The notes under the pieces: generated by a model
Told to the model about the DNA's origin: nothing
The model's database searches: none
What the model saw: only the letters and a program-made list of their open reading frames with translations
NCBI RefSeq assembly: GCF_000176915.2
Contig: NC_014844.1
Location: 2,170,001 to 2,234,000, forward strand
Direction of reading: 5' to 3'
Length of the DNA: 64,000 nt
Origin: Pseudodesulfovibrio aespoeensis Aspo-2
Lineage (GTDB): Bacteria > Desulfobacterota > Desulfovibrionia > Desulfovibrionales > Desulfovibrionaceae
In this document: positions 56,590 through 57,921 of the stretch, piece after piece
Layout of the letters: the number at the start of each line of letters is the position of its first letter
How positions within the stretch are numbered: position 1 is the first letter of the stretch
Translations under genes and position numbers: made by a program

Positions 56590-56664
56590 TGGTAGGCGCG
56601 GAGGGATTTGAACCCACGACCCTTTGCACGTCAAGCAAATGCTCTCCCCCTGAGCTACGCGCCT
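56590..56664 (-). tRNA. tRNA-Val (GAC anticodon)
   Basis: Cloverleaf on the minus strand: acceptor AGGCGCG/CGCGCCT, D-arm GCTC...GAGC, anticodon stem TTTGC/GCAAA with loop TTGACGT (anticodon GAC, reads GUC and GUU), five-base variable loop GGGTC, T-arm GTGGG-TTCAAAT-CCCTC, then discriminator A and encoded CCA. The T stem has one U-U mismatch at its second pair. Confidence 0.93.
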
Positions 56665-56684
56665 TCTCGTCGAAGCGGAGTGAA

Positions 56685-56713
56685 TATCTATCCGCGAGCC
56701 GTCCGGTTGTCAA
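56685..56713 (-). promoter_or_regulatory. Sigma-70-type promoter of tRNA-Val
   Basis: On the minus strand TTGACA (56708-56713), a 17-base spacer and TAGATA (56685-56690), about 20 bases upstream of the tRNA. Confidence 0.75.
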
Positions 56714-56800
56714 GCGCGGGGTGGACATTTTTTGCCTTTTTTCCAGCCAATCCGCCACACGACCCGAATCCCCCGGCTGGGCAGCCGACCTTGCGCAGGG

Positions 56801-56829
56801 TTGCCCCCATCTCCTCTCCTTGCTATAGA
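56801..56829 (+). promoter_or_regulatory. Sigma-70-type promoter of the DsrE-like selenoprotein gene
   Basis: TTGCCC (56801-56806), exactly 17 bases, then TATAGA (56824-56829); start of transcription would fall near 56836, about 28 bases before the ATG. Confidence 0.55.
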
Positions 56830-56863
56830 CAACGTCAATCCAAAATCAAAGGAGTTGTGGCGG

Positions 56864-57184
56864 ATGCAAATACTCATCACCCTGACCAGCCAGAATCCCG
56901 AGGTCAAATGGAACGCCCTGCGGTTCGGCAACTTTCTGCTCAACGCAAACGAGGACGTGACCATATTCCTCAACGGCCCTGCCGTTGATCTCGCGTCCGG
57001 CGACTGCGAGCAGTTCCCCATCGTGGAGCAAGCCAAGCTCTTTCGCCTGAGCGAGGGGGTGCTCACCGCCTGAGGCAAGTGCATGACCGTCCACGGTGTG
57101 GACGGAACCGAAGCCGTCACCCTGTCCAACATGCAGTTCCTCTACGAGGCCATGCGCAACGCCGACAGGATCATGAACTTCTAG
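56864..57184 (+). CDS. DsrE-like selenoprotein, Sec at codon 70 (in-frame UGA)
   Basis: A 106-residue DsrE/YchN-like protein if UGA 57071-57073 is read as selenocysteine. Before it: MQILITLTSQNP start, NALRFGNFLLNANEDVTIFLNG, EQAKLFRLSEGVLTA. After it the frame stays open: GKCMTVHGVDG..., ending ADRIMNF and TAG. Sec70 and Cys73 form a UxxC redox motif where relatives have a CxxC. A perfect eight-base-pair hairpin with a GGU loop lies 13 bases after the UGA (57087-57105), as bacterial SECIS elements do. The ATG has GGAG nine bases upstream. Read conventionally this would be a 69-residue fragment. Likely a sulfur- or selenium-relay redox protein. Confidence 0.8.
57087..57105 (+). promoter_or_regulatory. 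Bacterial SECIS element
   Basis: CCGTCCAC and GTGGACGG pair perfectly around GGT; 21 bases lie between the UGA and the loop. Bacterial SECIS hairpins sit immediately 3' of the UGA with G and U in a small apical loop, bound by SelB, as in E. coli fdhF. Confidence 0.72.
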
Positions 57185-57231
57185 CGACTCCAGGGGCTCG
57201 TCTGAGCCGGGCGACTCCCTTGTCTCCCCCG

Positions 57232-57921
57232 TCACCCCAGGGCGGCCAGGGCCTCGGTGGCCAGGGCGCCCACGGTGGTGTCCACCATCTCCCCACCGCG
57301 GAAGGTGCGGATGGGCGCGGTGTCGCCCGTGAGCGCGGCCAACCCGTCGCGGGCCGCCTGTGCGCCGATCAGACCCAGGGCACGGGCCGCGTAGGCCCGG
57401 TTGTAGGGATCACTCTCGGCCAGGGCGACCAGCAGAAACCGCTCGCCGTGGGCCACCAGCTCCGGGCGCACCTCGGCCAGCCGCCCAAGCCCCCAGAGCG
57501 CGTCGCGCCGCAGCTCCTGATGGTCGATGAAATTGCCATCGCAAGCCTCGTCACAAAAGATGTATGAGGCGAGTATTTTATGGAATTCCAAGGCGATCCG
57601 CTCGTTCTTAGCCATGGCCTCGCCCATGAAATGAGGGATGCCCCAACCCAGGTTGCCGGACTCCTCGTTCATGTGCCACATGCAAGTGCGCATGAGCACG
57701 CGCGCCTTTTCCATGGACGCTTCGGCCATGCGCCCGGCCACCAGCCCAAAGGCCGTGACCGCGCGCCAGCGCACCGCCTCGTCGCTGTCCAGGCGCAGCG
57801 AGAAGAGCGGCGGCGCGAGGATGCCTGGGGGCCAAGCGTCCAGCTCGCCCAGCCGGGCCCGCCAGTCGGCGGCGGCGAGGATGGACCTGAGATCGCCCTT
57901 CACTTGACGGAATCTGGACAT
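57232..57921 (-). CDS. DVU0298-family HEAT-like protein
   Basis: A 229-residue helical protein resembling the DVU0298 family of Desulfovibrio. HEAT-like pairs are visible (LDSDEAVRWRAVTAFGLVAGRMA; RRDALWGLGRLAEVRPELV; DPYNRAYAARALGLIGAQAARDGLAAL), with a conserved RTCMWHMNEESGNLGWGIPHFMGEAM in the middle. Function unknown; probably a protein-interaction scaffold. GGAGG precedes the ATG. Confidence 0.8.
   Translation of the reverse strand: MSRFRQVKGDLRSILAAADWRARLGELDAWPPGILAPPLFSLRLDSDEAVRWRAVTAFGLVAGRMAEASMEKARVLMRTCMWHMNEESGNLGWGIPHFMGEAMAKNERIALEFHKILASYIFCDEACDGNFIDHQELRRDALWGLGRLAEVRPELVAHGERFLLVALAESDPYNRAYAARALGLIGAQAARDGLAALTGDTAPIRTFRGGEMVDTTVGALATEALAALG

Follow-up and report, generated by a model that had tools for sequence, protein, structure and literature searches.

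The in-frame UGA at 57071-57073 of the window, by which we mean the whole stretch of 64,000 nucleotides of Pseudodesulfovibrio aespoeensis Aspo-2 that was analysed, is almost certainly read as selenocysteine (Sec), and comparative evidence from related genomes marks the surrounding frame as a genuine selenoprotein gene. The standard (table-11) reading cuts this gene short. Selenoproteins of this kind are already published, and the gene in the window is ordinary as a kind and solid as a case. The gene, its parts and one neighbour are the following:

56864-57184, plus strand: DsrE-like selenoprotein gene, with ATG at 56864, 106 amino acids including Sec70, and stop codon TAG at 57182-57184
56848-56854, plus strand: Shine-Dalgarno-like AAAGGAG, seen in the sequence 9 nt ahead of the ATG at 56864
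57071-57073, plus strand: UGA codon 70, predicted selenocysteine at the position of YchN Cys78; TGA in 58 and TGC in 3 of 61 places
57080-57082, plus strand: Cys73 codon, second residue of U-x-x-C and not invariant (S, L or R in 10 of 58 Sec homologues)
57087-57105, plus strand: SECIS hairpin with an 8-bp stem, loop GGU at 57095-57097 and a UGA-to-loop distance of 21 nt
56590-56664, minus strand: tRNA-Val (GAC), divergent neighbour found with ARAGORN and Rfam, context only

The frame given in the original prediction, from the ATG through the TGA at codon 70 and onward to the TAG, is borne out, as is its reading of the motif as U-G-K-C, the U-x-x-C arrangement of DsrE-like selenoproteins. The ribosome-binding site claimed there was likewise found as AAAGGAG, and GGAG-type sites also precede many orthologues in the upstream stretches inspected. 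The "good promoter" did not hold up: a sigma-70 consensus scan of 56660-57260 was empty, another promoter type being possible, and the promoter and terminator scan gave no terminator either. Read-through does complete a DsrE-like protein as had been proposed, since the full product scores 37.6 bits against Pfam DsrE (PF02635; gathering cut-off 22.7) and the form ending at the UGA only 14.2 bits, which is under the cut-off. PF02635 is the sole Pfam domain in the 106 residues, and the combination of SirA and DsrE in one protein that characterizes YedF was not found.

The related-genome search covered 197 genomes, including the genome of the window itself, and gave matches in 53 genomes at 61 places. 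At all of these the codon at the site could be read, and it is TGA in 58 and TGC in three (G057, G066, G159). The motifs are UGKC in 43 places, UGVC in five, UQKS in five, UGKL in three, CGTC in three, and UGKR and UGKS in one each. Thus, a Cys stands at +3 in 48 of the 58 Sec homologues, and the other ten have S, L or R there while Sec stays. A search with an alignment as query yielded 32 loci, 31 of which cover the whole query (the exception, L102, is cut short), with TGA at the site in 24 and Cys within CGKC in eight (L101, L103-L109); a plain-protein scan of the contigs had found no relative, at least partly because Cys replaced the UGA in one pattern. In a phylum-wide draw, 74 of 395 genomes matched with 84 rows, of which 66 carry an in-frame TGA, a tally made by hand on rows not filtered by codon position. 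The check on homologues that had been suggested therefore found TGA or Cys at codon 70 of the aligned sequences. The same TGA is held across genera, families and orders, and conservation goes on past it as far as the C-terminus, the opposite of the homologues stopping at the UGA that were to speak against the original prediction.

As to the samples behind these figures, identical duplicates were dropped from the alignments, A1 (38 rows) and A2 (22 rows) being selected subsets and A3 comprising the 48 distinct UxK-type rows. Two loci with a broken 5' part and a TAA inside (L051, L052) contribute to the 61-place counts and to the SECIS alignment but not to the protein alignments; alignment A4 and the tree do not include L102, in which a TAG follows residue 79.

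Substitution patterns tell the two sides of the UGA apart. Between the window sequence and 34 gapless relatives, pN/pS is 0.32 upstream of the UGA and 0.51 downstream, and pS falls to 0.37 in codons 75-83, which contain the SECIS, compared with 0.60-0.61 elsewhere. These values argue that the part after the UGA is constrained as a protein, less tightly than the part before it, and also as an RNA.

The genome has the machinery for inserting Sec: matches above the cut-off were obtained for selA (600 bits), selB (372.1 bits), selD (325.8 bits) and tRNA-Sec (selC, 82.3 bits), and the lack of selenocysteine machinery that could have spoken against the original prediction was not encountered. The selB cut-off is exceeded in 170 of the 197 genomes, a figure to be read with the breadth of this family, which also catches paralogous GTPases (14 of 14 controls match, two of them over the cut-off). 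On a side note, selD of this genome (L036:1501-2427) has an in-frame TGA and is probably itself a selenoprotein, judging from its reading frame. It is common for selD to be a selenoprotein. It is also listed as such for Desulfovibrio vulgaris in the accessible part of that work (PMC1794560).

Downstream of the UGA, the perfect 8-bp hairpin with a GGU loop that had been claimed is present in the sequence (57087-57094 paired with 57098-57105), begins 13 nt past the UGA and coincides with the minimum free energy structure of RNAfold. According to the available portion of a 2026 review (PMC13188914), bacterial SECIS elements have a loop of 3-9 nt, an upper stem of 4-16 bp, a G in the first two loop positions and a spacing of 16-37 nt; in the window the corresponding values are a 3-nt GGU loop, 8 bp and 21 nt from UGA to loop. 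The folding energy sets the hairpin only moderately apart from chance, with a z of -1.8 and an equally good fold in 11 of 200 shuffles. With this z-score energy was dropped as proof of the hairpin, and covariation was used in its place.

Among the 48 distinct UxK-type sequences, 92.7% of the stem cells are paired compared with 83.9% in shuffles, 24 stem cells are doubly changed against a shuffled mean of 5.1, and the covariation score is 0.202 against 0.073 in shuffles and at most 0.063 in six slid versions of the stem. On four of five measures none of 500 shuffles reached the observed value, and two of 500 did so on the fifth, the pairs changed on both sides. RNAalifold recovers seven of the stem pairs unaided and at least six contiguous pairs are present in 51 of 53 UxK-type rows; the outermost pair is weak and unpaired in 25 of the 48 sequences. 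We regard the hairpin as more than chance because of this covariation together with the finding that 58 of 61 places share the TGA at this codon. The paired changes alter the encoded residues in step, giving Ile...Asp (AUC/GAU), Val...Asp (GUC/GAC), Leu...Glu (CUC/GAG), Ala...Gly (GCC/GGC), Ile...Asn (AUU/AAU) or Leu...Lys (CUU/AAG). In the 35 gapless rows His77 is CAC in 34 and Val79 is GTG in all 35. Leaving Met and Trp out, no other residue shared by at least 90% of the rows has an invariant third codon base. The RNA element here dictates the seemingly "conserved" residues His-Gly-Val, a combination that is not retained as a whole in the Cys homologues.

All eight CGKC Cys forms have zero to two contiguous pairs at the place of the stem, compared with five to eight in ten named Sec loci. 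The broader statement that Cys forms are without any hairpin was rejected, as it is the conserved stem that is missing and other short stems lie near some Cys forms; their best ungapped stems have 5-8 pairs including G-U, and random 48-mers reach five pairs in 37.5% and six in 16.4% of cases. One Cys form, L101, falls among the Sec rows in the tree (fork support 91/79, from few columns and with long branches that meet) and has CUU CAU GCU GUA AGC in place of the stem; by its sequence it looks like a recent change from Sec to Cys.

Because the table-11 reading cuts the gene and no NCBIfam model matches any of 32 members (the window protein and 31 relatives) at E 0.01, a selenoprotein carried by 53 of 197 related genomes is easily missed. 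The same two facts are what speaks for the UGA being a true stop, with either a 69-residue protein or a pseudogene with fossil homology downstream as the consequence. We consider this exceedingly improbable in view of the TGA kept across taxa, the conserved residues behind it, the covarying SECIS, the Cys homologues, the Sec machinery and the cut form falling under the Pfam cut-off. The real selenoprotein that had been inferred is thereby upheld.

Regarding its fold, an AlphaFold model built from 32 sequences with C for Sec has a pLDDT of 83.3, with residues 73-82, which overlap the SECIS codons, below 50. A Foldseek search of this model against the PDB placed DsrE-family chains of 3pnx, 3mc3, 2hy5 and 2qs7 as the five best matches (E 1.5e-4 to 4.8e-3) at 10-16% identity, and a PDB search with the single sequence gave no DsrE match. 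The redox-cysteine position claimed for the UGA agrees with the Cys found in this column in homologues, and a profile alignment to 1jx7 sets Sec70 on Cys78 of YchN, albeit in a weak match (E 0.034) with numbering counted along the alignment. TusD and YchN presumably use the Cys that is aligned with Sec70. The protein would therefore share fold and active-chalcogen position with the sulfurtransferase-fold proteins of the YchN, DsrE and DsrF type, and differs from them in that Sec replaces Cys.

On this basis, we propose the following mechanism. The hairpin at 57087-57105 would recruit SelB with Sec-tRNA(Sec), so that the ribosome would read the UGA as Sec and go on to the TAG, producing a 106-residue protein of DsrE/YchN fold with Sec in place of the conserved Cys of the family. 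In the cytoplasm, the selenol of Sec70 would attack a sulfane-sulfur donor, bind the sulfur in a selenenyl-sulfide (Se-S) and then deliver it to a thiol or reductant as acceptor. Catalysis would depend on Sec alone, with Cys73, where present, helping in the release, and sulfate-reducing bacteria would use the relay to deal with reactive sulfur species. By analogy, a sulfur (or selenium) relay in reactive-sulfur handling is the likeliest function, and we give it about an even chance. The pattern of a constant Sec beside a variable Cys leads to the claim that selenium can act as a carrier atom in a sulfur relay.

Given Sec, the protein might also act as a thiol-disulfide oxidoreductase that forms a selenylsulfide between Sec70 and Cys73, with UxxC chemistry like that of thioredoxins. 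UGKC in 43 and UGVC in five of the 58 Sec homologues would suit this function, and the accessible part of the Sargasso paper (PMC1088965) lists DsrE-like UXXC proteins among thiol-dependent redox selenoproteins; however, the Cys has become S, L or R in ten of the 58 with Sec kept, and the matched fold is DsrE/YchN and not thioredoxin, and so we hold this function to be rather unlikely. Still less probable to us, again given Sec, is a carrier of selenium instead of sulfur that feeds SelD or selenium detoxification in the manner of YedF. YedF has a DsrE-like domain with CGxC, which gives it C/U-G-x-C in common with the window protein, and is linked to SelD, as described in the available text of PMC5322559, but it is fused to SirA/TusA, a domain that Pfam does not find in the window protein. 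Besides, no selenium gene is among the selection of neighbours scanned. In addition, of the 36 genomes of its own genus, 11 have the gene and the search did not find it in the other 25, although selB is strongly matched (best E of 1e-107 or below) in 34 of these 36 genomes, a distribution that argues both against the selenium carrier and, from presence and absence in genomes, for a dispensable gene.

The sulfur relay draws part of its appeal from gene neighbourhoods, which were defined by rough heuristic gene calls with Pfam confirmation for a selection of neighbours. The window copy itself stands alone, with tRNA-Val and a thrS-type synthetase on one side and a HEAT-repeat gene on the other. 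Its thrS-type synthetase, tRNA-Val, HEAT, TPR and ferredoxin neighbours were considered as an operon clue and gave none, and no match to ArsR or TauE was found in the 14-kb slice around it. At ten of the 61 places (six being copies of one island) and in six of the seven Cys-form loci L103-L109, ArsR is no farther than 1.5 kb from dsrE; for TauE, the numbers are seven of 61 (the six island copies and G165) and five of seven, all obtained with HMMs built from a few of the same loci and thus a biased test without a random-locus control. At the other 51 places, ArsR was not found within 1.5 kb (two have one farther off, and part of the stretches are short), which means that the argument from gene context comes from a minority. 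In the Cys form L109, rhodanese and DsbD are next in line according to Pfam. Neighbours of Sec forms vary widely, with ilvN/ilvC in L094 and rplS/rnhB in L096. The selenoprotein gene of L094 (5001-5318) sits between ilvN and ilvC by Pfam, and L082:5001-5318 has an ilvB-type gene upstream in what may otherwise be a similar layout.

By analogy, the contexts with ArsR, TauE and rhodanese resemble published sulfane-sulfur modules: in the accessible text of these papers, an ArsR-type sulfane-sulfur repressor acts on a cluster with dsrE3C (PMC10451225) and a cluster holds DsrE, TusA, rhodanese and TauE homologues (PMC9918477). Such modules (sHdr/Sox; yrk cluster) combine an ArsR repressor with DsrE3/TusA and TauE, the yrk repressor being CstR-like and not ArsR. 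They share neighbours with several relatives and most Cys-form loci, in contrast to the solitary window copy, and the regulator link is a putative one drawn from gene order.

In one group, the gene belongs to a roughly 17-kb segment, which is present in two copies at 99.9% identity in G002 (L110:439-17355), again in G033 and, up to the contig end, in G017 (at least 99.8%), and over 14.3 kb in G009 and G012 at 90.6%. Copies of this island are L111, L112, L113, L114 and L115, and its cargo consists of two integrase-family genes, ArsR, two TauE genes, an ABC transporter and the dsrE-Sec gene. The 3' part of tRNA-Glu forms a direct repeat at the two ends of L111 and L112, and the left end of L110 shares only a shorter stretch of it. 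From these features, we identify the segment as a predicted integrative island at tRNA-Glu. Searches for carriage of the selenoprotein gene on phages gave no match, and a plasmid search returned five records, all of them haloarchaeal DsrE proteins at 30-35% identity. Taken together, we tentatively picture a mobile ArsR/TauE-linked module around a persulfide carrier (Se-S) with a single Sec and a dispensable second Cys, a sulfurtransferase and not a redox enzyme, spread in part by the tRNA-Glu island among sulfate reducers; as a whole, this picture is possible rather than probable.

The original prediction placed DsrE-like selenoproteins in metagenomes, which is correct and understates what is published. 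In the parts of the literature available to us, two DsrE-like UXXC sequences were reported from the Sargasso Sea metagenome set in 2005 (PMC1088965), one such protein from Desulfovibrio vulgaris in 2006 (PMC1794560), and the family was relisted in reviews of 2022 and 2026 (PMC9312934, PMC13188914), both of which refer to WP_014524487.1 as its record. The window protein shares with the family of Zhang, Gladyshev and colleagues (2005/2006) PF02635, Sec in UxxC and a predicted SECIS 3' of the UGA. The accessible parts of the cited literature gave no description of the role of a DsrE-like selenoprotein. We encountered variants with Sec and without the Cys, the association with ArsR/TauE and the mobile island neither in the available descriptions of this family nor in accessible literature on DsrE-like selenoproteins, ArsR/DsrE/TauE and selenoprotein islands, which included few subscription papers. 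As far as searched, three points are therefore new: Sec is kept while the second Cys varies (10 of 58 without it), ArsR and TauE/SafE permeases stand beside a minority of the Sec relatives and most of the seven Cys forms, and in one group the gene rides on the tRNA-Glu island.

Some further observations concern the subgroups. UGVC forms a second Sec subgroup (L040, L041, L042, L043:6612-6920, L044), in which ungapped stems of 7-8 bp follow the UGA in three of five members and five pairs in the other two; two of the five members have ArsR no more than 1.5 kb away. In the UQKS subgroup (L047-L050, L053), Gly and Cys beside the Sec are both replaced while Sec is kept. Finally, a 7.9-kb segment with the dsrE selenoprotein gene is duplicated in G049 (L117:2571-10510 and L118) at 99.35% identity; it holds a tRNA-Pro, and by eye its open reading frames look like putative tyrosine recombinases.
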